Assembly (NCBI RefSeq): GCF_009826895.1
Contig: NZ_WUMV01000010.1
Location: forward strand, 1 to 64,000
Length of the DNA stretch: 64,000 nt
Source of the DNA: Stappia sediminis
GTDB lineage: Bacteria > Pseudomonadota > Alphaproteobacteria > Rhizobiales > Stappiaceae
Direction: 5' to 3'
The position numbers and the translations under genes were made by a program. Shown piece by piece: positions 12,281 to 54,620 of this stretch. The stretch's first letter is position 1, and each line of letters starts with the position of its first letter. The notes beneath the pieces are model-generated. The model was not told the DNA's origin. It worked only from the letters and a program-made list of their open reading frames with translations, and made no database searches.

Positions 12281-12323
12281 AGCAAATCCCGCCAAATCTG
12301 AATCGGATTTGGCGGGATTTGCT
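12281..12323. repeat. 18-bp-arm palindrome of a dispersed intergenic repeat family
   Basis: AGCAAATCCCGCCAAATC (12281-12298), loop tgaatcg, perfect complement 12306-12323. It is followed by AGCGATTTCT (12341-12350) and a CACGAAAGCG block. The same palindrome core (GCCAAATC, 7-nt loop, GATTTGGC), followed by AGCGATTTCT, recurs at 60628-60691. No gene lies in 12186-12365. It behaves like a REP-type module sitting directly beside the MITE at 12366. Confidence 0.75.
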
Positions 12324-12365
12324 CTGGATATTGTTTCTGGAGCGATTTCTAATCACGAAAGCGCT

Positions 12366-29100: not shown

Positions 29101-31675
29101 CGCCCTCGTCGACACCGCCGTCGAACGCCGGCTTTATGCCGATGCGCGGACCGTCGGCGAGAAGGGGCAGTTCCAGCCGACGCTCCACGAAACGCCCGCC
29201 GGCCTCCACGAGCCTTGCGGCGATCGTGGCCTCATAGAGCGCGCTCGTACCTGCCAGATCTGGAAGCACAGGCGTGAACGAAAGATTGCCTGCCTGGTCC
29301 GTCGCCATGCCGTCCGCCAGGGGTTCGCGCGCGGAATAGACGTCTTCATCCTCAAGTCCGAATTGATAGCCGGCATATTTCGGCATTTTTCGTGTGGGGC
29401 TTACGATCGTCTCGCCCTCCAGCCGCTGGCCGGAGGCGGGAGCGCCATAAAGAAAATTCGCGGAAAGCGAGATTTCAGGCGGATTGCGCGGATCGATCGC
29501 GCCTGCCGACGTTTCAAGAGCGAAATCGACCCGCTCCGGCTGGTAGTCTTCGACGAGGAAACTTTCCTCGGCGAGCGCCTTGCCTTGCGGATCGGCGAAA
29601 ATGCGCAGCGTCCAAGTGCCTTGCTGGATGGAAGGCGGGAGGGGAAGCGAATGCGCGCGCCCGCCAAGCCCTTCGTCATTCACCTGAACGCGGGCATGCT
29701 CCACCCCATCAGGGCGAAGGAAAACAAAGGTTAGCGGCAGATATCCCAGCGCATCGACCTTGTCATCCCGGGCGATTGCCGCTGCATGAACCGTTTCTCC
29801 AGGGCGATAGACACCGCGTTCCGTCCACGCGAAAATATCTATCGGCCCGGCGGCCGGTCGCCCCTCCACGCCCCGATCGCCGAGGTCGAAGGCAGGCCTG
29901 GTCAGATCGAGGAAGGCGTAATCGCCGCCATTCGTTTCTGCTACGAGAAGTGCCGGCGCCTGGCCACCCGTGCCACGCGTCAAGCCAGGCGCGAACCGGG
30001 CAATGCCCTTTTCGTCGCTCGTCGTTTCGCCCAGGATTTCGTTGTTTACGGCGACAAGGCGCACGCTTGCCTTTACGACCGCCTTCGCCGTGGCGAGCGA
30101 ACGCACGGACGCGGTCAACCCATCGCTTCCCGAATAGGACGTGAGACCCAGATCGGAGACGATGAACCATTGGGTCGCCCATGGGCCCCATTGGTTCTTC
30201 ACATCCGTTCCGGCGCGCGCCGTCATCGCATAGACGCCGGGCTTCGGCTCAATGCCGATATCGGCAAGGGGGATCGCCGTCGTGACGTCTTTATTGAGGT
30301 CGCGCTCCACCTCGACGACGCCTTTCCAGACGGCCTCGCCGTAGTCGCTCCTGATCTGGTCGGCCTGATACGAATTGAGCTGCGCCAGGAACTTGCGGTC
30401 ACGAAGGGCGGAGGCGAGCGCACGGTCGCCGATGCGGTAAATCTCCGCCTCCACTTCCTGCGTATTGACCGAAACGACCGGGATCGTCGCGCCTTCGCCC
30501 GCTGGCAAGACGTAAGACCGACCGAGGAAACGCACCGAAGGCTCACGGTCGCGCACATAGACGGAAAGGTCGGCAGATTTTAGCAGTTTTTCACCCTCGG
30601 CGGAGGGCAAGCCTTCCCTCACCAGAATTCCATAGCGGCGGCCGTGCGCGACACCGTCTATGCAAACCTGCGCGCCTTCGCTTTCCACCGCGAACGGGCC
30701 TTCGCCAGTCACCTTGACGAAGGGCGTCATATCGCTGCCGCGTGGCAAGGTTTCTGAAAAGACAACGCAGATACGCGGGGTTGCCGCGTCGGAATCGACC
30801 TGATGATTGAGAATGCGGAAGCCGTGTTCGGCAACCATCCTGTCATAGCGCTCGCGAAGACCCGACCGGTCGTCGAGCGTTAGCGCCTGCCGCCAGGCCT
30901 TGATCACCGGCTTCCAGGCCTGGCGTTTGGAAAGGGCCGTGCCGATAAGATCGAGCGCAAGCGCACGCTCCGTATCCGAACGAGACCTTAAATAGGCATT
31001 GATCGCAGCCGACGAACCCAGTTCATTGACTTCGTTCTGTTCCTGCCAGTTTTGAGGATTCTGGGCGATCAATGACGCGGTAAAACCCGCCCAGAGATCG
31101 AACGCCGCGGGTTCCAGCGCCAATGCCTGACCGAATGTGCGCTGTGCGGCCTTATAGTCTTGTGCTGACATTGCCGCGCGTGCGGAGGCGCTCAAATCGG
31201 TAAGGGTCGCGTTCGCCGGCTCGTACTCGCGCGGCAAGCGCCGCGACAACCGTTTCGCCTCTTCGATGAACGGCTGCGGGACGAACGCGAGTTCCCCCTC
31301 TCTCTCGTCCAGCGACACTCCGGCAACATCCCTGATTTCCACGACGCGGCCCGCAATCGCGCCGTCGAAGGCACGCAAGTCGCCGATATCCGACTTCAGG
31401 AAGCACCAGCGCGCGCTCACATTATAGGTGAAAGCCCGGCACATATCGTTTGCAAGGCAGGCGGCCTTGCAGGCTTCCAGATCGATTTCCTTCAGCGTCT
31501 GGAAATCCGCGCCGAAATAATCCGCTCCCTCCACCGTTACGGTGCGCCGTTCGTCCGCCTGTGCGGGCGGAGCGGTGAAAAATGCAAATGTCGCAAATAA
31601 AACAGCCGCACCAGCTTTGATAATCTTTCGGAAGGCGCTGCCGGGCCTGGCTTCGATGACAGCAAGCTCATACAT
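26156..31675 (-). CDS. Bacterial alpha-2-macroglobulin (YfhM type) with N-terminal PAN/Apple-like domain
   Basis: A periplasmic protease-trapping protein of 1,839 aa. The start ATG 31675 has GGGAGG 6 nt upstream. A signal sequence ends near residue 40 (PPAQA). Residues ~45-112 form a PAN/Apple-like domain with the cysteine pattern DLEACKAACLANDMCRAFTYN, then WCFLKSD. Macroglobulin MG domains follow, with the bait-containing region in the middle and the thioester motif GCTEQ at Cys1389 inside the alpha-helical TED domain. No lipobox was seen, so it is probably soluble or held by the N-terminal domain. The extra PAN domain links it to the two giant proteins at 37280-45907. It is co-transcribed with pbpC. 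Confidence 0.93.
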   Translation of the reverse strand: MYELAVIEARPGSAFRKIIKAGAAVLFATFAFFTAPPAQADERRTVTVEGADYFGADFQTLKEIDLEACKAACLANDMCRAFTYNVSARWCFLKSDIGDLRAFDGAIAGRVVEIRDVAGVSLDEREGELAFVPQPFIEEAKRLSRRLPREYEPANATLTDLSASARAAMSAQDYKAAQRTFGQALALEPAAFDLWAGFTASLIAQNPQNWQEQNEVNELGSSAAINAYLRSRSDTERALALDLIGTALSKRQAWKPVIKAWRQALTLDDRSGLRERYDRMVAEHGFRILNHQVDSDAATPRICVVFSETLPRGSDMTPFVKVTGEGPFAVESEGAQVCIDGVAHGRRYGILVREGLPSAEGEKLLKSADLSVYVRDREPSVRFLGRSYVLPAGEGATIPVVSVNTQEVEAEIYRIGDRALASALRDRKFLAQLNSYQADQIRSDYGEAVWKGVVEVERDLNKDVTTAIPLADIGIEPKPGVYAMTARAGTDVKNQWGPWATQWFIVSDLGLTSYSGSDGLTASVRSLATAKAVVKASVRLVAVNNEILGETTSDEKGIARFAPGLTRGTGGQAPALLVAETNGGDYAFLDLTRPAFDLGDRGVEGRPAAGPIDIFAWTERGVYRPGETVHAAAIARDDKVDALGYLPLTFVFLRPDGVEHARVQVNDEGLGGRAHSLPLPPSIQQGTWTLRIFADPQGKALAEESFLVEDYQPERVDFALETSAGAIDPRNPPEISLSANFLYGAPASGQRLEGETIVSPTRKMPKYAGYQFGLEDEDVYSAREPLADGMATDQAGNLSFTPVLPDLAGTSALYEATIAARLVEAGGRFVERRLELPLLADGPRIGIKPAFDGGVDEGGPAEFDVIAVSRDGGRIAADRLEWSLLKLDRRYQWYRLDGRWSFEPITTTSRVANGTLDVASDGAARLSVPVDWGQYRLEIASGGDAPMATSVTFNAGWYVSSASSETPDVLEIGLDKAKYRVGDTAILRLRSRFDGTAVVNVMSDRLIASKVVEVSGDRAEVPLEVTNDWGAGAYVTASLYRPMDLEAKRMPARALGVEWLSVDPAERALSVSIDAPEKMRPRSTLQAGLEIANLKAGEQAFVTLAAVDVGILNLTGYETPDPKAWYFGQRRLGTEIRDLYGQLIDRTAGTRGRVRSGGDGMGLRLDAPPPQEEAMALFSGVVAVDRNGRAQITFDIPDFSGTVRLMAVAWSKSGVGSAERDVIVRDPLVMTASSPRFLAPGDRSRLLVELDNVEGEAADYTFRASVNGPLVLPDGASRMLALDKGERKTVIVPLQATGEEGDGELNIAVEGPDGVHVEKRLSLGVRDNSPDITRRSFVSLAPSGKVTLDAATIAGLKPASALVSVSEGNTARINIPGLLNQLERYPYGCTEQVTSRALPLVYLNEMAVSAGLETESGIRERVEGAISSVLANQGSSGSFGLWSSFGSNDIWLDAYVTDFLLRAGERGYTIPQRPIESALDNIENRIAYASDFSDGGEGIAYGLYVLARAGRASIGDLRYFADEKLGDFASPLAKAQVGAGLALYGETQRAERALRAAVSEVEAQPASLARNDYGTALRDGAGILSYIAEADLDTLDGRGLVSFVADRQNESRGFSTQEMAWLLMAAHELRENARDAEFRIDGRAASAPLMERFTGEMLEGRSVEVENPGAEPTEIVISVTGKPEVPEPAGGEGFAISREIYNLDGNRIEGDAVAQNTRLVVVVKVESTLVQNGRLLVVDRLPAGVVIDNPRLVRAGDVGALDWLDPLSEVEHSEFRDDRFVVAFDQQRANGDSYTFAYMARAASPGVFAHPPATVEDMYQPQFAARTGGGTFEVLGPVR

Positions 31676-37279: not shown

Positions 37280-40200
37280 TCAGAGCTTCGGAAGCTCCGG
37301 AACGGGCGTATCGGTCATCCTTTCCCTGTATTTTTCAGCCAGTTTCTTGAGATCGATCAGGGCATAAGCAAATACCAGCCCATCGCCGTCCCAGTGGCTG
37401 CCGATACGTGCCAGCACCGTTGGGCCGCAATTGTCCCAAACGCTGGTGTCATACACATAGGAGGTTGAACCCGCCGAAGTCGCCCCGCCGACGACATCGA
37501 TCCTCGGCGCCTGGACGCTCGAGAATTTGTCGTTCAAACGCTCTCCCGTTCCCTCCCCCTCCACGACCCGCAACGTGCGCGGTTTCCACGCCATGCGAAC
37601 ACGCGCGGAGCAGACACCTTGAGAGAATTGGTGACCATCGCTGGCCACGGTATTGACGTTTTTTCCTACCGCGCCCTTGTGGTTCGTCCAGACCCAGGAA
37701 TCTGTGGTCGAACCCGACAAAGGCTCCCCGTATTTATCCTTCAGCAAGCCCAAGATCTGTTCCTGCGTCACGGCACCACGCACTCGGATGGTACGCGCCA
37801 CACCGATAACGTCGCCGCCACCTTCCCCGTTGCTGAATAGCGAGAAATATTCATCGCCGTCATCTCTTACGAACGCCTTGAAATTGTTGAAAGGGGCGTT
37901 CATATCGTAGCTGTAGCCTTTCGCGAATTCCGGATCGAGAACCGCTACTTTGCCGACACTTATGGTCTCGCGGACAATTTTCTCCGCTTCCTCGAAACCC
38001 TGACCCAGCCGAACGCCGCTAATGTCGCTTTCGCCCGTAACCTTGCTTGCCGGCGGAACGGGTTTGGCAACCTTTTTCTCCGGTTTGGCGGCGTTGCTTG
38101 CCGTCGGCGGCGTCGCGGCGGCGACCTGGGCTTTCGGGTTGGCGGCAGGCTTGCCCCCTAACGTCTTTACGCTCCCGTCTTTCGCCAAAAGCCAAATGTT
38201 GTAGCCATCGAACAGGCTCTTCATGCGCGCCCCGCCCTGCACGTAGGTCGCGCAGGAACCGACCACCAGGTCAACGACTTGCGTTTTCAACGCGGCGCCG
38301 AGTTCCTTTTCCGGCAACTGGATGTTTCGCACGGCAACATTTCTCAAGGCGGCATCGAGGAAATTCGCGTCTGCCTTCTCCAGCCCCAAATTCGCGATCT
38401 TCATTGGTGACTTGACGAGTACGGACTGGTCCTGGCTCGAAATCAAAACGATTTCGCCCGGCCCGCATGCGCCGGCTGAGGAGGGCTGCCCCTTCGGGAG
38501 CGCGAGAACGGCGACCTGTTTCGCCTGCGCGGTATCATCCGGCTTCCTTTGGCTCGGAAGCTCGGAGAAAGTAGCGTCATAAGCCGCGCGCCCGATCACC
38601 ATGTTGTCCCGATCCGGTATAAGGACGCTCGCCCCCACCGGTTCGACATCGAAGACCGGATATCCTTTTCCGCTATCCCACAGCACCTGCTTTCTGACGA
38701 CACGCATTTCCACGTTTACGGAAATGCTCGGATTGCGCTGGCCTTGCGGGATTTCAGGCCTGATCTTGTAGCTCTCGGCGGGCGCCGGCAGGGATAGCCA
38801 CAGGTCGGATCCCTCAAGCCCCGCCACGCCATCCAGATTCGCATAGACCCCCGTTAGCCTTTCCAACGGCACATTCGCCAGTTCAGAAACTTTTTCGAAG
38901 CTGCGCCTGCGCGAGGAGCCTGGCGGATAGAAGACGCCCGCGGTGAAGGATCGCTCGCCCTTCCCGCCGAAATACTGCGCCGAACCGTTAATCGTCTCCA
39001 CGGTTACCGTTTTCGGCGGATTGGCAATTCGCGCCTTTTGCCACTGCCCGAAATTTTCGAGCAATTGCGCCGGAGGCGCATCGTAACCCCTGCCGATGTT
39101 GGCTACGAGGTCATCAGGGAAAAAGCGCTCCCAGGCATCATCCATGCCCTTGATCCGATCAGGATAGGCTTCCAAGGAAGCGCGAATGCGCGCAAGCCGC
39201 GGCAGCGAAAGGCCTTTGCTCTCACCGTCCTGCCCGAGGATCACGCCGAGCGTATCCGTGCCGAGCCAGGCAGAACCGCGCGGAACCGCGCTGACGGTGT
39301 CTAGCGACGGAACCGGCTCAATTCCAAGGCGCATCACGGGCGTTGTCAGATTGTCGAAGCGGTAGAGCGCGGCGTCTTCCGGCTCGATCACGAGCTCGAA
39401 CTGGTTTGAGTTCCCACGTTTCTCGTCGGAACTGCGTAAACCGGTTATTTTGGCGTCAATCCCCATTATCGCCCCGGAGGTATCAAATCGGGCACCTCCG
39501 GCGCGAAGATTGTCACGAAACTGCCGTGCCTGAGCCTCCGGAATCGGGATTTCGAACTTCAATCGCTCTACAGGAACGGGAGCCGTAACGACGATCTTGG
39601 CGTTCGATCCCATTACAGCTTCGCCATACCCGCCGCGATCGAAAGCCACCGTCTTGCAAACGTTCGAACGGCTGGAGACGGGATAAACCTGCTTCTTGAA
39701 GTCGTACTCATCCAGCCCGAACGAACAAAGGATCTTGACCGAAATGGGCAGCTTCGGTGCTGTACGCGCCAGGATTTCCGGCACCTTCTCTCGTATGGAG
39801 GAAAGCACCGCCCGCCTGGCGAATTCATCAATCTTGTTCCGATACCAAAGAAGATCAGGTCGTCCGGCATTTCTCGAATCATATATGACGTTCGGGTCAA
39901 TTCCGGCGCTTGAAAGAATGCTGGCCCTTGAAGGCTTGTCGGCCAACCAGATCGAGTCGAATGCCAATTCGCGCGTTTCGAGCAAAGCCGGATTCTGGTC
40001 GAAAACAATCCTCATCGCCGCCCTTCTCCAGGACGAAAGACGTTCATCCGAACCTTCGTCGAGCCGGTATACGTACCCCCCTCCTCCGGGGGTGACCATG
40101 ACGGGTCTGCCATCCAAAAATGCGATACCCGCCAGTGCATTCGGGTCTACCGCCACGGGCTTTGTCACTGCATTGAAATCAAACAGCAGCTCTCTGGCGT

Positions 40201-41797
40201 CAGGATCCGCGTAGAGCTTCGAATGTGAGGCTTCAAGCAGCAGTTCGGCATTGCCTGAAGCTGCCTTTTTTTCCGGGATGTCCAGTGTCTTCTCGACAAC
40301 GACGAACGCCTTCCGGTCGGCTGACGGCAGTCGGCTTAGAAAAAGCTCCGCTTCATCGCGCGGCAACGGGATCGCATCGGGAACGCCACCCTTCTGCTCC
40401 AGATCGAAGTTCGCCACCGGCCTGACCGTTCCGGACAGGTTCGCGGGGCGAATGATTCTTATCGGAAATTCGCCCTTGGCCGCGTCATATGGCTGAACTT
40501 CAGCCTCGTGCACATGCAGCATCTTGATCGGCATTTCAGGAGCGAGGCCAGCCAGTCTCGGTCCGATATCCGCAACGAACGCCTTGTAGGCCTCTTCGCG
40601 TTCGAATTCGTTTTGTCCGCGCCAGCCATCGAACGGAACGTTACGGCTGCAACTCCGGTTACAGCCTTGCACATAGGTGGCAAGGAGATCGCCCGTCAGG
40701 AAACGGTTCGCATATTCATAGGCGACATACTGGTCGGACAGTATGCCCGGCCAGTTTTTGACGATCACCAGGTCCAGAAGCATTGCGAGATCGAGATGCG
40801 GCTTGATCATGTCGCGGCGCCCGACCCGCGTATCGCCGCCTTTTTGCGCGCCATAAACGATCGGGTATCCTGTGACCAGCCGCTCACCCGATTTGACGGG
40901 TGCGATTTGGCGAAAGCCAGGCGGCATGTTCACGGGCGTTGGCACAAACGCCTGATACCGGGCCTGCCCGGACGTGGCAGCCGTCGCCTGGCCCGCTCCG
41001 GCGGTTCCGCCATCGCTAACCTTGATGCCGGAAACGGCCCCGCGAAACGCGGTTTGCGCCGCGACGGTATTTTTGAGAATGCAAACCCTTGCCCGAAGGT
41101 TGAAGGTGAAGGCGGAGCACCTCGCATCGGCCGCGCACAGGTTCTTGCAATTCACGGCCGATATGCCGCGCAAGGATGGATCGGAGACGCCCGATCTATA
41201 GTCGCCGGCCGGCAGGTCGACGTTGTTCAGGACGATAAACGGCGCTTGGGTATTTGCAGGTCCAGCCGGCCGCTGCGGCGATGATGCGCCGCCCGCCTGA
41301 TTGCCTGTCAGACGCTGGTCCGATCGGGCGTAGAGAATGTCGATCTGTTCGGCGGTCAGCCGCCCGGTAGCGCGAACGCCGATAGAACGTTGGAACCGGA
41401 TAATCGCCCTGCGCGTTCTGGACCCGAATACGCCATCGGCCTGTCCGGCATCGAACCCGAGTATGTTCAAACGGTGCTGGATTTGCCGCCGGTCCTGCCT
41501 CCGATTCGCGGGCCGCCACTGAACCTTTTGCAGGTTTCGAAAATTTCCCGCCAAATCCGCGTCGAATCTGGCGGCGAAAATATGCTCAGGAATTCGATTT
41601 TCAGCCGATGCCTTGTCACGAAAGCGATCCGGATTTTGCCATCGCCGCGCGAGCACCACCCCCGCGGGGTCAGCCCCCCGATCTTCGCTTGAAATTCCCC
41701 CGGCTTCATTTCCCGCGCTTGCGGATTGCTTGGCACCCGCGATCGTCAAGGCAACGAAACAAAGAACGGAAAAAAACGACAGTCGTACGCAACGCAT
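37280..41797 (-). CDS. Giant exported protein with peptidoglycan-binding and PAN/Apple-like domains, function unknown
   Basis: A 1,505-aa protein that I do not recognise beyond its N-terminus. Signal peptide ~1-28. Residues ~102-155 are a PG_binding_1 repeat (IQHRLNILGFDAGQADGVFG, RRAIIRFQRSIG). Residues ~186-260 are a PAN/Apple-like domain (NCKNLCAADARCSAFTFN, VCILKNTV). The middle (~280-1240) has no family I can name; it is mixed alpha/beta with scattered cysteines. A Pro/Ala/Lys linker (~1245-1285) leads to a C-terminal domain (~1290-1490) with VRLGQGFEEAEKIV, similar in feel to small periplasmic domains that follow such linkers. The first 16 bases around the ATG (GCGATGCGTTGCGTAC) match those of the next gene upstream, and both share a TGGACATT box ~75 bp before the start. 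It may sit on the cell wall. Confidence 0.8.
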   Translation of the reverse strand: MRCVRLSFFSVLCFVALTIAGAKQSASAGNEAGGISSEDRGADPAGVVLARRWQNPDRFRDKASAENRIPEHIFAARFDADLAGNFRNLQKVQWRPANRRQDRRQIQHRLNILGFDAGQADGVFGSRTRRAIIRFQRSIGVRATGRLTAEQIDILYARSDQRLTGNQAGGASSPQRPAGPANTQAPFIVLNNVDLPAGDYRSGVSDPSLRGISAVNCKNLCAADARCSAFTFNLRARVCILKNTVAAQTAFRGAVSGIKVSDGGTAGAGQATAATSGQARYQAFVPTPVNMPPGFRQIAPVKSGERLVTGYPIVYGAQKGGDTRVGRRDMIKPHLDLAMLLDLVIVKNWPGILSDQYVAYEYANRFLTGDLLATYVQGCNRSCSRNVPFDGWRGQNEFEREEAYKAFVADIGPRLAGLAPEMPIKMLHVHEAEVQPYDAAKGEFPIRIIRPANLSGTVRPVANFDLEQKGGVPDAIPLPRDEAELFLSRLPSADRKAFVVVEKTLDIPEKKAASGNAELLLEASHSKLYADPDARELLFDFNAVTKPVAVDPNALAGIAFLDGRPVMVTPGGGGYVYRLDEGSDERLSSWRRAAMRIVFDQNPALLETRELAFDSIWLADKPSRASILSSAGIDPNVIYDSRNAGRPDLLWYRNKIDEFARRAVLSSIREKVPEILARTAPKLPISVKILCSFGLDEYDFKKQVYPVSSRSNVCKTVAFDRGGYGEAVMGSNAKIVVTAPVPVERLKFEIPIPEAQARQFRDNLRAGGARFDTSGAIMGIDAKITGLRSSDEKRGNSNQFELVIEPEDAALYRFDNLTTPVMRLGIEPVPSLDTVSAVPRGSAWLGTDTLGVILGQDGESKGLSLPRLARIRASLEAYPDRIKGMDDAWERFFPDDLVANIGRGYDAPPAQLLENFGQWQKARIANPPKTVTVETINGSAQYFGGKGERSFTAGVFYPPGSSRRRSFEKVSELANVPLERLTGVYANLDGVAGLEGSDLWLSLPAPAESYKIRPEIPQGQRNPSISVNVEMRVVRKQVLWDSGKGYPVFDVEPVGASVLIPDRDNMVIGRAAYDATFSELPSQRKPDDTAQAKQVAVLALPKGQPSSAGACGPGEIVLISSQDQSVLVKSPMKIANLGLEKADANFLDAALRNVAVRNIQLPEKELGAALKTQVVDLVVGSCATYVQGGARMKSLFDGYNIWLLAKDGSVKTLGGKPAANPKAQVAAATPPTASNAAKPEKKVAKPVPPASKVTGESDISGVRLGQGFEEAEKIVRETISVGKVAVLDPEFAKGYSYDMNAPFNNFKAFVRDDGDEYFSLFSNGEGGGDVIGVARTIRVRGAVTQEQILGLLKDKYGEPLSGSTTDSWVWTNHKGAVGKNVNTVASDGHQFSQGVCSARVRMAWKPRTLRVVEGEGTGERLNDKFSSVQAPRIDVVGGATSAGSTSYVYDTSVWDNCGPTVLARIGSHWDGDGLVFAYALIDLKKLAEKYRERMTDTPVPELPKL

Positions 41798-42037: not shown

Positions 42038-45000
42038 TCATAAGCCCTGTACCGCGATCCTTACGCGATAGGCCTCGTCCTGAACCGAGCGCATCAACTG
42101 TCCGACCACCATTTCCACCGGCTTGTCGCGCATCGGGAAAATGTAGTGCGTCTGTGCGTCGACGATGTCCTTGAGCGAGAAGACAATATTGGCGCCTCTC
42201 AGCACCTCGACACGCACGAGGCGGTTGGCATTCGAAGAAATCCGGTAGCAGGTCACGTCTTCGGGCGGCGCCACACCGGAGACCTCGACCATATCGTTCA
42301 TCGCGGTCAGCCGGATCGGGATACAGCCTTTGTCGTCCTGCAAGGTGCTCGCATCATCGCTCGCTGGCGCTTTATCCCGCTGGTGTCGCGGGGAAAACGA
42401 ACCCGTGCCTTGACCCGCGGCGCCCGCATTCTCGATGACGTAAAAGTCTTTCCTGTGCTCGGCCGCCTTCTCGTCGCTGGGGTAGATGTATACCTCGGTA
42501 TCACCGACGACGTACCTTTCTCCTTCAAGCGATTTTTCGTAACTCACGCTCATTCCGTCAGGCACCTGGAGGATCACGCGGTCATTCGGCAGGCCGACAT
42601 TGAAGACACTTATTTGCCGCGTCATGCCGGGCGGAATGTTCCTGAATGCATTCGGGCTCAGGACCACGGTGTCCGTTTCAATGTCGTGCGGCCCCACAAT
42701 CACCGAGAATGAGATTTCCCTGAACGAACAGATGATGAGCGTATCCTCGCCGGGGCCCAGATTGACGCTCGTCGTCTCCAGCGGATCGAAAACGTAGACG
42801 ACATCATTCCCGCCGCCGGTGCTGAAACCTTGCAGACCCGGCGTGTCGTCGATCAGGGCACGGTCGTCACCTTCGCTGTAATGAACGGTCTTTGTGCCAT
42901 AGCTGACGATTTCCCTGCGCTCGCTGAAATTCCGATCCACCGAAAGATCGGGGCAAGTCTTTTCCGTCGGTGCCACGACGCCGGCGGGAGCACCGGAAGC
43001 AAAAGATCGCTCGAGAGGCTCGGCCGTCTCGGTGATGATCACCTCGCGACCGAATGGCTCCCTTCGCGTCGTATCGGCTCCATAAAGGGTGACGACGACA
43101 TTTCCGACCCGGATTTCGACGCTGGTGCCCGTGGCATCGCGAATGTTCGTCACGCTTTTTCCGGGTGGAAGCCGCATCAACACCCGGTCGTTCTCGGGCA
43201 TGAAGCCGAAAATACGAATATAGCGCTGAATTCCGTCAGGAACTCCGAGGAATACATCCGGCCCGAGGATTACGCCATCGGCATCAAGATCCGGTTGCAG
43301 GTTGTTCGCACCAAGGCTGACGTTGAACGTCAGGGCATCGATGGTGCACAGCATGATCTTGTCGTTTCCCGGCCCTGCGGTAACGGATGTATCGGGGCGC
43401 GGATCGTAGAAGATCAGCGTGTCGTCACCCTCCCGCCCGTCCAGAGAGGCTATGCCTGCGCGCCCGAAGAAGATCAAATCGTTGTCGCCCGTATCTAGCG
43501 GCGGGTTCGTGCTGCCATCGGATGCGTTCACGCTCGCCATGCTTTGCGCCGCCTCATCAGGAGGCGAGCAAACGAGACCGCTCAGCTCCGGCGGCGGAGC
43601 GAAGCCGCTTGGAGCGACAGGCGTCTGCCGCGTGCGCTCGATTATGAAGATATCCGGGTTTTCCTTGAGCTCGCGTCGCCATCCCGCCATTGCCACATCG
43701 ACCGTCAGCGAGCCCACCTTGGCGCGCGTGCCGCCCTGGTCGATATCGGCCTCCACACCTTCGGGCAGGCGCAGGATGATCCGGTCGTTCGGCTTCGCGA
43801 TCCCGCCAACGACTATCGACCGCTTCACGCCGTCTAGGAGTCGGGCAGCTTCCACGACGACGAGATCCGGCTCCGCATCGATGGTATCTTGCTGCACATC
43901 CACGAGGAACAGGGGGTCGTCCATCCCGCAGATGAATATCCGGTCGCTGCCTTGCCCGGTGTGGAGGTTTTGCGATGTGTATGTATAAACAATATCATCG
44001 CCGCCGCCCGTATCGTGAATAGTGACGCCTTGCTTGCGGTCGATCCGGATGGCATTTCCCTGCGGGCTGTAAAATGCATGCATCAGTTCCATGCCGACAG
44101 GTTCCGCAGGCCTCATCGCGTCCGCGTCCTGGCAGCCTTGCGTCTCGTCGTAGTTTGAAAGCGGTGGGCCTGCGATGATCGGATCGACCGCCTCAGGCGC
44201 GCCCACCCGTTCGATGACGAACGCGTCCCTCGTCACCGCAAAAACCGAATCGGCGCGCGCGACATTGAACGAAACCGGCCCCGCCCTCGCAATGACCGAG
44301 CTGTTGGGCATAAACGTGAAATCTACGCCCGGCGGTAGTTTCAGCCTAATTCTGTCGCTCGAATTCGTGAACGAAAGTATCCGGATCTGTCGGTCGAACC
44401 CGTCGGGCACACCTGTAAAAACAGCCGGTTCGAATACGATTTCATCCAGCGAATTATCCCCGCCAAGACTTTCCTCGGAACTCAGGTTGACCTGTAGGGA
44501 CAATGTCGACATCGAACAGACGAATATCCTGTCGGCGCCTGCACCGGCGACGATGCCCACATTGGTATCCGAGTCCGATATGTAGATCCGGTCGTCGCCG
44601 TCGCCTGCATCCACGCCCCTGACGCCCGGCGCGTCATCCACGCGGATTGCATCCGCACCGTCCGAGAAGAAAATGTAGTTGGCCAGGGTCCTTACGGGGC
44701 TTGACCATGGCCCTTGCGAAACCGACGCGGCACAAGCCGATTGCTCTCGCACCTGGTCTGGCACTCCGCCCGCTGCCGCCGGAGGTGCCGCGATCCCTGC
44801 CTCTTCTGTCCCGGCTGCCGGCGCGCGGGCAATCGGGCCCGTTATTTCAGCCAGCGGCTTCCCCCGACCCATTTGCACGAGAGCCGGTGCCTCCGCACCC
44901 TCCAGGGACACCACGAGCTCGCCCGTCACCTCACCTGTGCTTTCAAGGCCGTTGTCCCGCTGATAACCGCGGATCGCGCCCCGCGTCCGTCGCCCCATCC

Positions 45001-45907
45001 TGCCATCGACAGCGCCTGCGCCGTATCCCCGCTCGTTCAATAGCCGCTGCACATAGGCCAATTGCGAAGTTTCGCTTGTCTTCCAGGCCGGAATATATTC
45101 GCTGCCGTCATATGCCTGCCGAAGGCCGTTGACGAGAATGTCCCGCCAACCGTTCGTCACCGTATTCAGCGCGGCCATGTCGAAGGCTATGTGGTTTCCT
45201 ATGCGGCTCGCCGCCTCGCCGGTCAAATCGAGCACCCAGGCCGCACACCCGAGAGATCCGCAATCGTAAGGGCTCTCTATCAGGACGAACGCTTCGGACA
45301 CGCCATCCAGATTGAGATCGGCGAAAGCGATGTCGAATTTTCTGTCGGGGTGGGGCTCAAGGCCGGACGCATCATCTTGTCTGCGGATGAAGTCTGCCAC
45401 CTTTGTGCGCAGAGCCGCCTCGCTGGGCACCGGCTGGGCCTGCGCCGGGCTATCGGAGGGCTTTTGATCACCCTCACCCGCGCGAGCTACATTCTGCTCG
45501 GCATCTGCTTTCGTGCCCGATATGGCGCCATCGAGAGTTACTCGCTCACCGACGCCTTCCTTCAGATGGCAGATCCCGTCAGCGGTCAGGTGCGTGAAGG
45601 CAGCGCATCGCTGATCTGCGGCGCAAAGGTTCTTGCAATCGACGGCCGATATTCCGCTCAAAGCGGAATCATCTTCACCGGAGCGATAGCTGCGGGAAAG
45701 CAGGTCCGCATTGTTGAAGATGAAGAACGGAACTTCCTGGACAGCAGCATTTTCGGCTTGAGCGCCCTGCCCGGCCTGCGCGAGCCGAACGGGGGGGCGG
45801 TCTCCCTCCGCATGCACCCTGCCACTTGACCCGGCAAGCAAGGAGGCACTCGCCAGGAATGAGAAAATCAAAGGCGTGACAAGGAACGGTCCGGGTACGC
45901 AACGCAT
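42038..45907 (-). CDS. Giant exported protein: PAN/Apple-like and peptidoglycan-binding domains plus four tandem RTX-like modules
   Basis: A 1,289-aa exported protein if started at ATG 45907 (MRCVPG), the same start as its neighbour; a TTG at 45922 with AGAGGA upstream would add five residues. Signal peptide ~1-33. A PAN/Apple-like domain (~60-135; DCKNLCAADQRCAAFTH, GICHLKEG) is followed by an FG-GAP-like loop (ADLNLDGVSE) and a PG_binding_1 repeat (~280-330). Then come four modules of ~190-210 residues (~392-567, 592-758, 780-960, 985-1160). Each begins with a Cys, has GxGxD turns (DAGDGDDRI, GAGADRI), a second Cys ~70 residues later (RIFVCSM, RIFICGM, KIMLCTI, LIICSF) and ends NDRI.L.LP.G then VIER-like. 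A fifth, short Cys pair closes the protein. The turns resemble calcium-binding RTX repeats. I know no named family with this layout. Confidence 0.82.
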   Translation of the reverse strand: MRCVPGPFLVTPLIFSFLASASLLAGSSGRVHAEGDRPPVRLAQAGQGAQAENAAVQEVPFFIFNNADLLSRSYRSGEDDSALSGISAVDCKNLCAADQRCAAFTHLTADGICHLKEGVGERVTLDGAISGTKADAEQNVARAGEGDQKPSDSPAQAQPVPSEAALRTKVADFIRRQDDASGLEPHPDRKFDIAFADLNLDGVSEAFVLIESPYDCGSLGCAAWVLDLTGEAASRIGNHIAFDMAALNTVTNGWRDILVNGLRQAYDGSEYIPAWKTSETSQLAYVQRLLNERGYGAGAVDGRMGRRTRGAIRGYQRDNGLESTGEVTGELVVSLEGAEAPALVQMGRGKPLAEITGPIARAPAAGTEEAGIAAPPAAAGGVPDQVREQSACAASVSQGPWSSPVRTLANYIFFSDGADAIRVDDAPGVRGVDAGDGDDRIYISDSDTNVGIVAGAGADRIFVCSMSTLSLQVNLSSEESLGGDNSLDEIVFEPAVFTGVPDGFDRQIRILSFTNSSDRIRLKLPPGVDFTFMPNSSVIARAGPVSFNVARADSVFAVTRDAFVIERVGAPEAVDPIIAGPPLSNYDETQGCQDADAMRPAEPVGMELMHAFYSPQGNAIRIDRKQGVTIHDTGGGDDIVYTYTSQNLHTGQGSDRIFICGMDDPLFLVDVQQDTIDAEPDLVVVEAARLLDGVKRSIVVGGIAKPNDRIILRLPEGVEADIDQGGTRAKVGSLTVDVAMAGWRRELKENPDIFIIERTRQTPVAPSGFAPPPELSGLVCSPPDEAAQSMASVNASDGSTNPPLDTGDNDLIFFGRAGIASLDGREGDDTLIFYDPRPDTSVTAGPGNDKIMLCTIDALTFNVSLGANNLQPDLDADGVILGPDVFLGVPDGIQRYIRIFGFMPENDRVLMRLPPGKSVTNIRDATGTSVEIRVGNVVVTLYGADTTRREPFGREVIITETAEPLERSFASGAPAGVVAPTEKTCPDLSVDRNFSERREIVSYGTKTVHYSEGDDRALIDDTPGLQGFSTGGGNDVVYVFDPLETTSVNLGPGEDTLIICSFREISFSVIVGPHDIETDTVVLSPNAFRNIPPGMTRQISVFNVGLPNDRVILQVPDGMSVSYEKSLEGERYVVGDTEVYIYPSDEKAAEHRKDFYVIENAGAAGQGTGSFSPRHQRDKAPASDDASTLQDDKGCIPIRLTAMNDMVEVSGVAPPEDVTCYRISSNANRLVRVEVLRGANIVFSLKDIVDAQTHYIFPMRDKPVEMVVGQLMRSVQDEAYRVRIAVQGL

Positions 45908-45979
45908 CGCCCATCCCCGCAAGATTTTCCTCTAAGGATTACTATCATCCTCGGAATATTGTTTTCGAAATTACATTTC

Positions 45980-45987: not shown

Positions 45988-46171
45988 GACCGTTTCTCCT
46001 GAAACAGGCGCAGGATTTTTGATTTTTCGGCGCGTAATTTCGGATTCAATTTGTTGAAGAAGCCTTATAGGCCGGGTTTCCGATATACGACCGCTTCAAA
46101 GCTATCGTCACAATCAAATGCAAAATATTGCAATATTGATCGCGATGATCGAATTGTCGGAGAAACCTGCC

Positions 46172-47092
46172 ATGAGAGAGAGTTCGAAGAATTTTGCCCC
46201 GGCAGATTGGCTGGAAGCCGAACTTGCGGACACCCTGGACGAAGACTACGAGCTCGAGCTTGGCGAGGCCGGTCTTTCGCTGGAGATCAAGAAAATCTAT
46301 CAGCGTGTACATGGGGAATCGCTTCCAAGAGGCGATTACTTCCGCGCGCTTTTGCGGCTGCAGGCCGAGCTGATCAAATTGCAAGACTGGGTCGTGCACC
46401 ACAAGAAGCGGGTCGTGGTGCTGTTCGAAGGCAGGGATGCCGCCGGCAAAGGCGGTGTCATCAAACGCATCACGCAAAGGCTCAACCCCCGCGTGGTGCG
46501 CGTGGTCGCCTTGCCTGCCCCATCGGACAGGGAAAAAACGCAGTGGTATTTTCAGCGGTATGTGCCGCACCTGCCTGCGGGCGGCGAAATCGTGCTATTC
46601 GACCGGTCCTGGTACAACCGTGCCGGAGTGGAGCGTGTGATGGGCTTCGCCAATGAGGAGCAGGTGGAACAATTTTTCAAGGACGTTCCTGAATTCGAAC
46701 GCATGCTCGCGCGCGATGGCATTCAGCTCGTGAAATACTGGTTCTCCATCACAGACGAAGAACAGCAGTTGCGCTTCATGATGCGCATTCACGACCCGCT
46801 CAAGCAGTGGAAACTTTCCCCGATGGATCTGCAGTCCCGCGTACGCTGGGAAGATTATACCAAGGCCAAGGAGGAGATGCTGGAGCGCACGAATATTCCG
46901 GAAGCGCCGTGGTACATCGTGGAAGGAAACGACAAGAAGCGCGCCAGGCTGAACTGCATCGACCACCTTCTTTCGCTGTTTCCTTACGCTGATATTCCCA
47001 GCGAGGAAATCGAGCTGCCCGAGCGGATATTCAATCCGGATTACGAACGCGCGGTGTTACCGCCGGAACTTTACGTGCCCCAGAAATATTGA
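46172..47092 (+). CDS. ppk2: Polyphosphate kinase 2 (PPK2 class I)
   Basis: PPK2 enzymes move phosphate between polyphosphate and nucleoside diphosphates, usually in the direction of GTP or ATP synthesis. Walker A is EGRDAAGKGGVIKRI and the Walker B/lid region is LFDRSWYNRAGVERVMGF; the further family phrases KYWFSITDEEQ and SPMDLQSRVRWEDYT are present. The start chosen is ATG 46172 (306 aa), with GGAG 9 nt upstream; two earlier in-frame ATGs (46118, 46145) lack a binding site. The gene is monocistronic by position. It could supply nucleotide triphosphates under stress, fitting the nucleotide-linked genes of the N-ATPase island ~4 kb away, but no direct link is shown. Confidence 0.94.
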   Translation: MRESSKNFAPADWLEAELADTLDEDYELELGEAGLSLEIKKIYQRVHGESLPRGDYFRALLRLQAELIKLQDWVVHHKKRVVVLFEGRDAAGKGGVIKRITQRLNPRVVRVVALPAPSDREKTQWYFQRYVPHLPAGGEIVLFDRSWYNRAGVERVMGFANEEQVEQFFKDVPEFERMLARDGIQLVKYWFSITDEEQQLRFMMRIHDPLKQWKLSPMDLQSRVRWEDYTKAKEEMLERTNIPEAPWYIVEGNDKKRARLNCIDHLLSLFPYADIPSEEIELPERIFNPDYERAVLPPELYVPQKY

Positions 47093-47397
47093 GCCAGAAG
47101 GCCCGGGCCTGAAGGGTGAACTTGTCGACACCGGAGGTCCGCTGTTGCGAGTGCCCCGACGAACGGCACGGGGATTGGAATTGCCTCTTCCCGCGCACGG
47201 CGGCGGACGGCCAGGCCGGCTGAATGCCCGTTATCGCATCGTTGTTCCATCTCAATTTTTCTGGTATACATGATATACTTGACAAGATACATAAACGGGC
47301 AATCCCGGTTCGAAAAGCCTCCTCCGAAGGCGTCAAATGCTGCGAGCTCGCGAAATCCCCCGCTTGCAGAGCCTGAATGTCATCGAGAAGTGACAGC
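47093..47397. other. Intergenic region before the GntR regulator
   Basis: After ppk2 there is a 12-bp palindrome AGGCCCGGGCCT (47099-47110), possibly a terminator stem. The second half is AT-rich and holds the operator-like site at 47264-47278. No gene is visible. Confidence 0.4.
47264..47284 (+). promoter_or_regulatory. Operator-like GTATA-N5-TATAC site overlapping a TTGACA hexamer
   Basis: GTATA (47264-47268) and TATAC (47274-47278) are an inverted repeat with a CATGA centre, similar in style to GTATAC-containing operators of FCD-type GntR regulators. TTGACA (47279-47284) follows directly and could be a -35 box, though no good -10 is seen 17 bp on. Autoregulation by the next gene is the natural reading. 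Confidence 0.45.
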
Positions 47398-48195
47398 ATG
47401 GAAAACGGCGATCAAAACGCGAGTTCCAGACCGACGGCCCGACCGCGAAAACCGCGCGCGCCGAATGCACCGCCGAAGGCCCATCGCCATCAAGGCGCAT
47501 CATTGCCCGCAAGGAATTCGGACTTCGTCTATCAGGACCTGCGCCGGGAGATCATCTCGATGCGGCTCACACCTGGCACCGCGATCCTGGAGAAGAACCT
47601 TGCCCAGCGATATGGCGTCAGCCGGACCCCGGTGCGCGAGGCTATTGTGAGGCTTGCCAAGGATCGCCTGATCGATGTGGTGGCGAAATCCGGCACATTC
47701 GTCGCGCCAATTCCGCTTGCCATGGTGCGTGAGGCACTGGTGGCACGTCGCGCGCTGGAGGCCGCTACGGTACGCGAGGCAACCGAAAAGGCGAGCGAAA
47801 GCCAGTTCATGGAAATTCGCGCGATCATCCAGCGCCAGCGCGAAAACGCCCAAGCCGGAGACGAAGCGGCCTTCCACCGCGCTGATGACGATTTCCATGC
47901 CGCCATCGCGGCCGCAGGGCGGCTTGCAGGCATATGGGATATGATCCAGCAAATCCGCATCCAGATCGAGCGGTACCGCCGCCTGACGCTGCCGCAACCG
48001 GGGCGCATGCTCAAAGTCGTCGGCGAGCATGAAGCGGTGCTTGAGGCCATGGTGCGTCGCGACGCCGACGAAGCGGTTGCGAAAATGGCCTATCACCTGA
48101 ACAATTTGCAACTGGATATCGCCGTGTTCAGGGACATGTGGCCCGATTATTTCCTGTTAGACCCCGCCGTCGACAGCGATTTGCTTGCCGAATAG
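47398..48195 (+). CDS. GntR-family transcriptional regulator, FCD subfamily
   Basis: A regulator of ~265 aa from ATG 47398 (GAGAAG 7 nt upstream); an ATG seven codons earlier is also possible. A basic, Pro-rich N-terminal tail precedes the winged helix-turn-helix (~40-105; VYQDLRREIISMRLTPG, NLAQRYGVSRTPVREAIVRL). The C-terminal FCD effector domain (~115-255) shows the metal-binding type residues in ADDDFHAAIAAAG and VGEHEAVLEAMVRRD. It lies directly upstream of kduI and kduD in the same direction, so it probably represses uronate degradation genes and is relieved by a keto-uronate. The effector is inferred from context. Confidence 0.92.
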   Translation: MENGDQNASSRPTARPRKPRAPNAPPKAHRHQGASLPARNSDFVYQDLRREIISMRLTPGTAILEKNLAQRYGVSRTPVREAIVRLAKDRLIDVVAKSGTFVAPIPLAMVREALVARRALEAATVREATEKASESQFMEIRAIIQRQRENAQAGDEAAFHRADDDFHAAIAAAGRLAGIWDMIQQIRIQIERYRRLTLPQPGRMLKVVGEHEAVLEAMVRRDADEAVAKMAYHLNNLQLDIAVFRDMWPDYFLLDPAVDSDLLAE

Positions 48196-48223
48196 TCACC
48201 TGATTTCAATAAAGGGAGCGCTG

Positions 48224-49069
48224 TTGAAACTCATGAATATGTCAATCCGCCAGGCCGTAAGCCCGGCAGAGGCCCGCACGTTCGATACCGATGCGCTTCG
48301 CCGGAATTTCCTCGTGACCGACCTTTTCGGCTTCGGCGAGATACGCATGACCCATTCGCATGTCGACCGAACGATTCTCGGCGGTGCTGTTCCGGGCGGA
48401 TCCCCCCTCGAACTCCACGCCCCTGAGAAGTTCATGGTGGCGAGCTTTCTTACCCGACGCGAGATGGGCGTCTTCAATATCGGCGGAAAGGGAGCTGTAA
48501 TCCTCGACGGGACGGAGCATCCCCTCCCCGCCGGAGATTGCCTCTATGTGCCGATGGGCGTGGAAACGGTCGCGTTCAAGAGCGAGGACGCGGCAAGCCC
48601 GGCACGCTTTTATTTCGTCAGCACGCCTGCGCACGCGCATCACGAAATCCGCATAATTGCGCGGGACGAGGCAAACCGGGTCGAGATCGGCGAGGATGAT
48701 GGCGCCAACCGGCGGACGCTGCGCCAGTACATCCATCCTGACATCTGCTCTTCCTGCCAGCTCCTGATGGGCATGACGATGATCGCGACCGGGAGTGTCT
48801 GGAACACCATGCCTTGTCATACGCACGACAGGCGGTCCGAGGCCTATCTCTACTTCGACATGGCGCCGGAAACGCGGGTCTTTCATTTCATGGGCGAACC
48901 GCAGGAAACGCGCCATCTGGTCGTCGCCAACGAACAGGCGATCCTTTCGCCCGGGTGGTCTATTCACTGCGGCGCCGGCACGTCGAACTACGGGTTCATC
49001 TGGTCGATGGCCGGCGACAATCAGGAATTCACCGACATGGACATGGTAGCGATGGAGGATCTGCGATGA
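48224..49069 (+). CDS. kduI: 5-dehydro-4-deoxy-D-glucuronate isomerase KduI
   Basis: This cupin-type zinc isomerase converts 5-dehydro-4-deoxy-glucuronate (from unsaturated uronates of pectin, alginate-like or glycosaminoglycan breakdown) to 2,5-diketo-3-deoxygluconate. Metal ligands are visible in CHTHDRRSEAY (two His and a Glu) and the His of WSIHCGAG. TTG 48224 is preferred because GGGAG is 5 nt upstream, giving 281 aa; the ATGs at 48233 and 48239 are alternatives and would start nearer the E. coli protein. kduD overlaps its stop by 4 bp. Confidence 0.93.
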   Translation: MKLMNMSIRQAVSPAEARTFDTDALRRNFLVTDLFGFGEIRMTHSHVDRTILGGAVPGGSPLELHAPEKFMVASFLTRREMGVFNIGGKGAVILDGTEHPLPAGDCLYVPMGVETVAFKSEDAASPARFYFVSTPAHAHHEIRIIARDEANRVEIGEDDGANRRTLRQYIHPDICSSCQLLMGMTMIATGSVWNTMPCHTHDRRSEAYLYFDMAPETRVFHFMGEPQETRHLVVANEQAILSPGWSIHCGAGTSNYGFIWSMAGDNQEFTDMDMVAMEDLR

Positions 49070-49818
49070 GCAATCCATTCAGCCTGGAAGGCCGTACCGC
49101 CGTCGTCACCGGCGCCAATACCGGCATCGGTCAGGCGGCAGCCGTGGCGTTGGCGCAAGCAGGCGCGCGTATCGCGGTCGTGGGCCGTTCCTCGATGGAC
49201 GAAACGATTGCGAAGATCGGCGATCCCGGTCGCGTTCACGCAATCAGCGCGGATCTCTCCAGGACAGCAAACCTTGCGCCTGTCATCGACGAGGCGGTCG
49301 CCTGGGCAGGCGGCGTCGACATCCTCGTCAACAATGCCGGCATCATCCGCCGCAACGATGCGCTCGACTTCACGGAAGACGACTGGGATGCGGTGATCGA
49401 CATCAACCTTAAATCCGCGTTTTTCCTTTCCCAGGCTGCCGCGCGCCACATGAAGGAACACGGCGGCGGAAGGATCATCAATATCGCCTCCCTGCTTTCC
49501 TTCCAGGGCGGCATTCGCGTTGCCTCCTATACCGCCTCCAAAAGCGGGCTCGTGGGGCTGACGCGGGTTCTCGCGTGTGAATGGGCGTCGCTCGGCATCA
49601 ACGTGAACGCCGTCGCACCCGGATATGTGGTGACCAACAATACCGAAGCGTTGCGCAACGACCCCGCGCGGTACAAGGCTATCCTCGAGCGCATTCCCGC
49701 AGGCCGCTGGGCCGAACCGGAGGATATTTCAGGCGCCGTCACATATCTTGCCTCGGACGCGGCGCGCTATGTCCACGGCATCGTCATTCCCGTGGATGGC
49801 GGTTGGCTCGCCCGATAA
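49066..49818 (+). CDS. kduD: 2-deoxy-D-gluconate 3-dehydrogenase KduD
   Basis: A 250-aa short-chain dehydrogenase that reduces 2,5-diketo-3-deoxygluconate to 2-keto-3-deoxygluconate, the step after KduI. It has the Rossmann motif TGANTGIGQA, NNAGIIRR, the catalytic Ser in INIASLLSFQGG, and the YTASK catalytic Tyr and Lys. The ATG overlaps the kduI stop (ATGA), and GGAGG lies 7 nt upstream, so translation is coupled. KDG kinase and aldolase, needed to finish the pathway, are not in the window. Confidence 0.92.
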   Translation: MSNPFSLEGRTAVVTGANTGIGQAAAVALAQAGARIAVVGRSSMDETIAKIGDPGRVHAISADLSRTANLAPVIDEAVAWAGGVDILVNNAGIIRRNDALDFTEDDWDAVIDINLKSAFFLSQAAARHMKEHGGGRIINIASLLSFQGGIRVASYTASKSGLVGLTRVLACEWASLGINVNAVAPGYVVTNNTEALRNDPARYKAILERIPAGRWAEPEDISGAVTYLASDAARYVHGIVIPVDGGWLAR

Positions 49819-49996
49819 AGCCTTGAGGGCCTGCACCGCGTCATCGCAATCCATCATTGTCCGGTCGAGATCGGAGGCCAGCAGGGCATGGACGGAGAAT
49901 ACAGCGCCAATTGAGAAAAGCATCGGCCTCGCACGCCATTCATCACAGCGAGGATCACGACGGTCCGGCAGTCCCAAGGCGGCTGATCCACCTCGA

Positions 49997-50932
49997 TCAT
50001 GACGCTTCTTCCGGCCAATAGAGCCGCATCGGGTTTTCGACAAGAAGCCGGCGTTGCAGGTCTTCCGTCACAGCGATCTCGGGAATGAGGTCCACCAGCG
50101 CACCGTCGTTCGGCATGTGGCTGCGCATGTTCGGGTGTGGCCAGTCGGTGCCCCAGAGAACCCGATCGGGAAAACGTTCGACCAGCGTTCTGGCGAAGGG
50201 AACAACATCTTCGTAGGGCGGTCCGGCGATGCTGAGGCGCTCCGGGCACGACACCTTGATCCAGAAGCGCTCGTCGCCTTCCAAAAGGTTCAGCACAGCC
50301 GCAAAGCCCGCCCCTTCTACTCCATGCGCGACTTCGGGCCGGCCCATATGATCGATGACGATGATGCCGGGCAAGGAACGGATGAAAGGCGCAAGCTCGT
50401 TCAGTTCGGCGGATTCAAAATAGACGACGATATGCCAGCCGCGCGCGGCAATGCGTTCGGCAATACGGAAATACTGGTCTTTCGGCGCGTCGCCGACGAG
50501 CCGTTTCAGAAAGTTGAAACGAACCCCACGCACGCCGCCCTCGTGCAACAGGTCAAGCTCCACCTCAGGTGCCTCCGCATCGACAACGGCGACACCGCGC
50601 GCCAATCCACCCGAGCGGGCAATCGCATCGAGCATTGCGCTGTTGTCGGTCCCGTGGCAGGTGGCCTGCACAATCACGTTGCGGCTCAGGCCGAGATGAT
50701 CGCGAAGCGCGAACAGACGCTCCGCCGGCGCATCGACCGGCGTGTATTTGCGCGCAGGCGCGAAGGGGAAGTGGCTGGAAGGCCCGAAAACGTGGCAATG
50801 CGCATCCACCGCGCCGGCAGGCGGCTTGAAATGTGGGCGCGACGGGGATGGGTTAAATGTCAGATAATCCGGATCGGGCGCCTGCGAGACCGCTCCCGCT
50901 CGCCTTTTATTGTTCTGGTTCTCGCCTGACAT
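49997..50932 (-). CDS. LigI-like amidohydrolase (2-pyrone-4,6-dicarboxylate lactonase family)
   Basis: A TIM-barrel amidohydrolase of 311 aa. The barrel begins with the HxH strand VDAHCHVFGP, has IVQATCHGTDN, IDHMGRP and finishes with the Asp strand LWGTDWPHPNM. This pattern fits LigI and related lactonases that open 2-pyrone-4,6-dicarboxylate or sugar-acid lactones without needing a metal or with a weak one. GGAGGG lies 6 nt before the ATG. It is convergent with kduD, 178 bp away. The neighbourhood suggests sugar-acid lactones as possible substrates, whereas the best-known members act in lignin-aromatic breakdown; the sequence does not decide. Confidence 0.85.
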   Translation of the reverse strand: MSGENQNNKRRAGAVSQAPDPDYLTFNPSPSRPHFKPPAGAVDAHCHVFGPSSHFPFAPARKYTPVDAPAERLFALRDHLGLSRNVIVQATCHGTDNSAMLDAIARSGGLARGVAVVDAEAPEVELDLLHEGGVRGVRFNFLKRLVGDAPKDQYFRIAERIAARGWHIVVYFESAELNELAPFIRSLPGIIVIDHMGRPEVAHGVEGAGFAAVLNLLEGDERFWIKVSCPERLSIAGPPYEDVVPFARTLVERFPDRVLWGTDWPHPNMRSHMPNDGALVDLIPEIAVTEDLQRRLLVENPMRLYWPEEAS

Positions 50933-51142
50933 GCCAGACCCTCCCTATACCAAATTTTGCCGATCTCCCGTCATTTGTGAAATGGATAGTCGTGTTGATG
51001 CGCACCGTTTGAATTGGTCAGCCGCCGGCAGTCATGCTGGATTTCGAACTAATCATTCTCCTTGTTCTTCATATGCTTCTGGAGGAGCTCGGCGTCATCC
51101 GGACGGGCGAGCGACTGGCCGGAGCCGGGCCGAGATCTCCAA

Positions 51143-53568: not shown

Positions 53569-53791
53569 TGGAGATCCATTCTGGCCGAATGCTCCGGCAT
53601 CGCACGGTTCGAGCCCCGTTTTATCCGCTCCGGTGTCGCTTCACCTAGAAGACCGCCGGTTCGGGTGGACGGCATATGCAGATTATGCGTGCCGGAGCGA
53701 ACCGGAAAGCATTGGCCCCGCATTTTATGCTGCCGACATAGGAAGGCGAGTGCGCTTGCGCGATCGGAAATCGCTCCAGCATGAATATTCT

Positions 53792-54616: not shown

Positions 54617-54620
54617 GTGC

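Follow-up and report, generated by a model that had tools for sequence, protein, structure and literature searches.

The window analysed here, a stretch of 64,000 nucleotides, encodes on its minus strand a protein of 1,505 aa that is recognisable at its front and unnamed in its middle and at its end. This raises the question of what kind of protein it is and what it may do in the cell envelope. The original prediction described an exported, wall-binding protein from a single-copy gene, with one novel middle region of about 950 residues, a linker of Pro, Ala and Lys and a C-terminal domain, and took it for a dedicated part of a machine rather than for a metabolic enzyme. The following parts can be distinguished:

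37280..41797, minus strand: whole ORF of 1,505 aa with an ATG start and its stop codon at 37280-37282; homologues extend across RA, RB and CD
41714..41797, minus strand: putative signal peptide of the Sec type without a lipobox, residues 1-28, read from the sequence
41543..41636, no strand assigned: copy of a dispersed palindromic repeat, in frame, about residues 54-85, between the signal peptide and the peptidoglycan-binding domain
41333..41503, minus strand: PG_binding_1 domain (PF01471), residues 99-155, Pfam 52.2 bits (cut-off 23)
41048..41221, minus strand: PAN/Apple domain, residues about 193-250, PAN_1 23.6 bits at 211-247 (cut-off 21.4)
40151..40807, minus strand: unit RA-1, residues 331-549, predicted helices followed by mixed beta structure (structure model, hhalign, unit profiles)
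39308..40048, minus strand: unit RA-2, residues 584-830 (structure model, hhalign, unit profiles; DUF4852 below its cut-off)
38561..39277, minus strand: unit RB, residues 841-1079 (structure model, hhalign, unit profiles)
38153..38560, minus strand: stretch of residues 1080-1215 with a low-confidence model, mostly pLDDT <50
38042..38152, minus strand: Pro/Ala/Lys linker, residues 1216-1252, with P, A or K at 26 of 37 positions by reading of the sequence
37328..38029, minus strand: C-terminal domain CD, residues about 1257-1490 (model with pLDDT 80.5 and pTM 0.83; family alignment)
37283..37291, minus strand: C-terminal tail P-K-L, the last three residues (tail count of the family)

The ORF is genuine. 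GGAG is found directly upstream of its ATG, and the homologues indicate that the middle and C-terminal regions are real coding sequence. As predicted the gene is single-copy, since residues 280-1505 find no second match in the own genome of 4.79 Mb. The front agrees as well with an exported, wall-binding protein, as far as this can be read from a putative signal peptide and from PG_binding_1 and PAN_1 domains above their cut-offs, and both the linker and the C-terminal domain are present. Two other PAN models, PAN_4 (24.7 bits, cut-off 27) and PAN_2 (14.5 bits, cut-off 21.1), remain below their cut-offs. The PAN domain is 51% identical to that of the 1,294-aa neighbour. Apart from PG_binding_1 and PAN_1 nothing in the protein reaches a Pfam cut-off; the matches to NCBIfam and PHROGs all fall on the peptidoglycan-binding piece and PADLOC gives none, and no family of these four collections was found for the middle and C-terminal regions.

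The remaining protein matches within the own genome are pieces of peptidoglycan-binding and PAN domains and five weak matches at residues 45-102. The latter stem from a DNA repeat of about 95 bp that is dispersed through the genome and has one copy inside the ORF. The copy at 41543-41636 shares 71-76% identity over 93-100 bp with four other sites of the own genome and matches 25 bp at a fifth (L119-L123); its identity to one examined site in each congener (L124, L125) is 76-78%. A weak copy lies in the window at 12287-12366 (69%, E 0.001). In our reading the consensus consists of two palindromes, the second of which is mostly lost from the copy in the ORF. Rfam holds no family for this repeat, and the ORF copy folds no better than its shuffles (z +1.0). 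Judged by these alignments, the ORF has captured a repeat that now forms part of the N-terminal linker and is translated in frame.

The middle of the protein is modular. What had been described as one novel region of about 950 residues consists of two homologous RA units of about 220 aa, a distinct unit RB and a further stretch; the region is indeed without an assignable family, but it is not a single one. The homology of RA-1 and RA-2 is clear from hhalign (99.8%, E 2e-28; five column-shuffled controls all <=0.1%). Between RB and RA no sequence relation is detectable by the same program (0.2-0.4%), although the predicted RB structure resembles RA in its order of helices and strands. A phmmer search matched an arylesterase chain to residues about 650-722 (E 0.003). 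The RA units align over the conserved stretch of DUF4852 (PF16144) and are distant relatives of it. Across the whole own genome the DUF4852 model hits RA-2 and nothing else, at 13.3 bits (E 0.26) against a cut-off of 22.8. It is listed in 8 of the 27 scanned family members, with E limits that varied between the scans, and none of them reaches the cut-off and thus membership, the best being L073 with 22.1 against 22.8 bits. In contrast to the description of DUF4852, RA is about 220 aa long, often occurs in tandem and is followed by RB and CD. A literature search by the name DUF4852 found nothing.

Structure prediction did not lead to a known fold either. The CD model is of fair confidence, its last ten residues averaging a pLDDT of 64. 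Foldseek finds no match to it at E <=1e-3, and the best chain in VIA-align is residues 54-218 of S. aureus SAV1118 (4h0a), with Z 5.6 over 123 residues at 4.5 A and a sequence identity of 8%; CD has no Pfam match. According to the note of that program, best Z values of 7 to 8 are typical for models without a clear match, and the value for CD lies below these. The motif LGMSxEEA in CD would presumably indicate a BamE/BLIP-like fold; folds of this kind are absent among the structural matches listed for CD and the middle. Residues 290-1225 gave a weak model (pLDDT 66.6, pTM 0.48) with three successive helix-then-beta units, behind which a final stretch of approximately 140 residues is mostly below pLDDT 50. 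With this model VIA-align reports 108 chains at Z >=2, the best 50 of which are listed (best Z 3.8). Among the solved structures, searches with sequence profiles of the middle and of CD found nothing beyond one chance row (E 1.1), and the 266 C-terminal residues by themselves gave no more than one row at E 0.13. As far as the models allow, no solved structure appears to fit the middle or CD convincingly, and the structural search that had been suggested for the middle points to no characterised family.

One set of matches would make the protein toxin-like, RA and RB then having ADP-ribosyltransferase-like folds in tandem: Foldseek ranks 1-33 for the middle model are all enzymatic components of binary toxins (E 1.4e-4 to 2.7e-2). 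These rows, however, have probabilities of at most 0.38, TM values of at most 0.14 and an rmsd of about 23-25 A on a weak underlying model, and none of their chains is among the best 50 of the 108 VIA-align matches. Pfam reveals no ADP-ribosyltransferase family in the 1,505-aa protein up to E 1. Moreover, a common C-terminal end behind a variable front would be the reverse of what is seen in polymorphic toxins. A toxin is therefore highly improbable, and we set this reading aside for the low Foldseek probability and TM and for the absence of its chains among the VIA-align matches listed.

The homologues define a family of 31 distinct members, the 1,505-aa protein included, with sizes from 282 to 1,866 aa. 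All members were sought with CD, which is consequently found in 31 of 31 by construction. Profiles built from the units detect RA in 22 and RB in 21 of the 31, a scoring that includes the 19 proteins whose units built the models; outside these 19, L042 and L050 match RA and RB, L038 and L043 match RB, and L052 matches RA (E 6.5e-4). The number of RA copies varies from 0 to 3 and four members have two CDs. The order RA, RB, CD is nearly fixed behind a variable envelope module, with L048 as the sole exception (a weak third RA behind RB, E 3e-4). CD itself is diverged, with 90% identity in 12 of 210 columns.

Among the 27 members covered by the Pfam scans (L023, L041, L047 and L079 were left out), the domains above cut-off are PG_binding_1 in 11, PAN in 2, DUF6636 in 2, YARHG in 1 and PDZ in 1. 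In these 27 members there is no Pfam family above cut-off for RB and CD, and NCBIfam, PADLOC and PHROGs, with one to four members scanned, contain none. The protein L074 from another family has the same order of PG-binding, PAN, RA, RA, RB and CD as the 1,505-aa protein. L036 and L037 are 76% identical. The shortest arrangement is that of L076 and L078 (282 and 312 aa), which consist of a putative signal peptide, read from the sequence, CD and the tail alone. L072, L073 and L075 share an N-terminal stretch past the signal peptide, by eye W-C...DL.L...LR..CP, for which Pfam has no name.

The occurrence of the family is sporadic. Within the own family, the Stappiaceae, residues 280-1505 are found in 2 and CD (CD profile A5) in 4 of 87 genomes, the own genome included in both counts; both congeners (G004, G005) lack the protein in searches with residues 280-1505 and with the CD profile. 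In the own order the first protein search found 7 and CD profile A5 14 of 397 genomes; an earlier profile, A1, found 8 of 385 genomes in the class and 2 of 398 in the phylum, again including the own one. The genomes for order, class and phylum are samples drawn from larger groups. E-values of profiles iterated on the family itself are inflated and therefore left out. The loci L019, L020, L021 and L025 duplicate L034, L043, L040 and L036, and each pair was counted once; the members L022 and L077 share one genome. Twelve relative loci come from Bauldia, Bosea (2), Stappia, Nitratireductor, Gemmobacter, Methylobacterium, Pollutimonas, which is a betaproteobacterium, and four genomes assigned at family or order level. 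By the family scans and literature searches made here this appears to be a rare family that has no name so far. Literature joining any two of PAN, bacterial alpha-2-macroglobulin and peptidoglycan-binding was not found.

Transport by phages or plasmids was considered and rejected: tblastn against plasmids and phages gave no match, the CD of L036 likewise gave none against plasmids, and a CD scan of viral contigs revealed no relative. The GC content of the window from 36 kb onward (0.56-0.63) is not clearly foreign.

The gene had been noted to lie beside a modular giant of the same direction, which we take to be the PAN/alpha-2-macroglobulin protein encoded at 26156-31675 (-) beside PBP1C. The two genes have the same strand and their PAN domains are 34% identical in the matching stretch, but beyond PAN the proteins have nothing in common. 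The giant is present in 68 of the 87 family genomes, in several of them in pieces or with internal stops, whereas the CD of the 1,505-aa protein occurs in 4. The protein thus does not track the giant. A dedicated machine part working with neighbours is not supported: both congeners lack the protein, and neighbour families recur at no more than 5 loci. Across 23 homologue loci, 21 of which have a neighbour, the commonest neighbour families are found at 5, 4, 3 and 3 loci; the first are relatives of the hybrid kinase of the window and the second short-chain dehydrogenases. The family is sporadic and has no recurring partner.

Synteny with the congeners ends at about 36.1 kb. The nearer congener G005, whose giant is 86% identical, is colinear from 29419, the edge of the compared stretch, to 36100 and then stops; in G004 the DNA matches end at 36065. 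Within the next 19.9 kb at least ten scattered pieces of 94 to about 1,230 bases are found in the two congeners at 66-78% identity (best 40 candidates per genome), two of these ten being the dispersed repeat. The adjacent gene at 42038-45922 (-) begins with TTG and encodes the 1,294-aa protein with PAN, PG_binding_1 and several long G-D-D/G-S-D-rich repeats, the sequence of which resembles that of degenerate RTX or beta-roll units. At E <=1e-30 it is found in 1 of the 87 family genomes, its own. Because the synteny breaks off and this neighbour is confined to one genome, the two genes belong to a species-specific segment that adjoins a conserved block. An operon of the two, which share the strand and are separated by 240 bp, was considered and rejected; the signals in this stretch do not exceed the shuffle level (promoter-like sites 5 against 3.6 expected, terminator-like sites 8 against 10.6).

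Two other parts of the window may be recorded here. The region 46118-56138, largely missing in both congeners, carries genes for PPK2, a GntR regulator, an SDR and an amidohydrolase as well as ribose-phosphate pyrophosphokinase-like, pyrimidine phosphorylase-like and ATP-synthase alpha/beta-like genes. The tandem genes 20653-21933 and 22291-23613 (-) encode proteins with 87.5% identity, the first of which is a porin (PF02530).

Fronts and distribution would also suit a protein that is anchored to the wall by its front modules and shields the cell from external hydrolases or inhibits them, such as lysozymes or enzymes of predators and hosts; RA and RB would bind the enzyme and the tail would be a structural remnant. 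LprI, a lysozyme inhibitor, is detected in 3 of the 27 scanned members (L039, L044, L045), but always under its cut-off. The fronts include PAN, PG-binding, YARHG and DUF6636, and the sporadic distribution is that of arms-race genes. The PAN-alpha-2-macroglobulin and PBP1C encoded nearby are similar in spirit; the alpha-2-macroglobulin is, however, inherited independently, and no inhibitor fold is prominent in the structural searches, the protease inhibitor potempin A reaching at most Z 2.5 among the matches listed. We consider this explanation somewhat improbable.

The feature that most of the family has in common besides CD is its very end. The last three residues follow the pattern [IVLPM][KRD][LF] in 28 of the 31 members and in 6 of 327 other ORFs of at least 150 aa, which were called greedily from the same loci and the window (Fisher p 1.6e-32, with the members counted as independent and uncorrected for kinship). 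Ends in K-[LF] alone are found in 24 of 31 members and 2 of 327 background ORFs. Only duplicates were dropped from this count, and the broken or truncated frames L047 and L079 were scored as misses. The three exceptions are these two, L047 with a CD cut short and L079 with an internal stop, and L077, in which CD is fused to a PDZ domain. Seven members were found later through matches that end before the end of the model; five of them have the tail, and the others are the L077 fusion and the broken frame of L079. In 17 of 19 rows the tail stands 17-37 residues past an invariant Asp of CD, behind a stretch of variable length; left out here are the tail-less internal CD copy of L043 and one shortened row of L045. 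L043 (6944-10720, +) has two tandem CDs, with the tail behind the second alone. The 1,505-aa protein has the pattern as P-K-L, presumably at a free end.

A C-terminal Phe or Leu is also the way in which outer membrane proteins end. The tail could then be a signal for outer membrane sorting or stability, and the protein a passive scaffold or adhesin of surface or wall in which RA, RB and CD serve as spacers and lectin-like modules. Its size, its modularity and the varied front modules, PAN and PG-binding among them, would suit such a role. The CD model, on the other hand, is without a barrel-like run of strands, as we read its strand list, and L076 and L078, which are reduced to putative signal peptide, CD and tail, argue that CD and tail have a role without any scaffold. 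A scaffold of this kind seems to us somewhat improbable.

The PDZ fusion points in another direction. L077 (5350-7470, -) lacks the tail and has instead a PDZ domain behind CD (PF00595, 23.6 bits, cut-off 23.2). This domain is closest to DegP: TIGR02037 matches it with E 5e-8 at the C-terminal PDZ of that model, and among solved DegP chains the match is to residues 271-326 with E 2e-5. It is matched in 25 of 28 genomes of the family to which L077 belongs, one of them being its own, and in all 19 loci compared it matches, at 33-48% identity, the end part of an ORF about 500-600 aa long. The two of these 19 ORFs that were typed (L100, L107) are both Do-family proteases.

Taking the computed anatomy and tail together with this fusion and with the precedent discussed below, we infer a free tail that docks on a PDZ domain, and suggest as a tentative possibility that the 1,505-aa protein is tethered to the wall and makes contact with an HtrA-type protease through its tail. 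After export, the PG_binding_1 and PAN front would anchor the protein to peptidoglycan or to some other glycan of the envelope. RA-1, RA-2 and RB would make up a long arm, and the flexible linker would expose CD and the free C-terminal tail, a peptide on which the PDZ domain of a periplasmic HtrA/DegP-type protease could dock. The protein might then tether, recruit or activate the protease at the wall, or serve as its conditional substrate. The PDZ fusion is, however, a single case, and a PDZ domain in cis can equally replace another function. The tail may also be inherited by shared ancestry without being a ligand, though CD itself is diverged. No protease gene was found to recur beside the homologues (23 loci, 21 with a neighbour; identities were assigned to the two commonest neighbour families).

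A broader proposal, which we put forward as unlikely at present, is that the whole family, which is mostly alphaproteobacterial and includes at least one member from the Betaproteobacteria, consists of undescribed wall-tethered adaptors. CD and the hydrophobic-[K/R/D]-[L/F] tail would recruit or activate HtrA-type PDZ proteases, and the interchangeable fronts would choose the site in the envelope. Naming the RA-RB-CD family would give a handle on so far unnamed proteins of 282 to 1,866 aa. Should the tail serve as a handle for proteases, dedicated proteins could bring periplasmic quality-control proteases to the cell wall.

Known systems offer a partial parallel. According to PMC8545111, free hydrophobic C-termini are ligands for the PDZ domains of HtrA proteases; the C-terminal peptide of MucE, ending in WVF, activates the HtrA protease AlgW, and a peptide ending in YYF was used as DegS activator. 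In this respect the C-termini of MucE and of outer membrane proteins, as activators of AlgW and DegS, resemble the family described here: they too belong to envelope proteins that end in hydrophobic-x-L/F (PMC8545111). Unlike the WVF and YYF peptides of that source, the family tail has K, R or D as its second-last residue. In contrast to MucE and outer membrane proteins, the carrier is here a large protein that combines a wall-binding front with a new end domain, and its PDZ binding is presumed. If this holds true, it would go beyond the known activation of proteases by misplaced outer membrane proteins and MucE.
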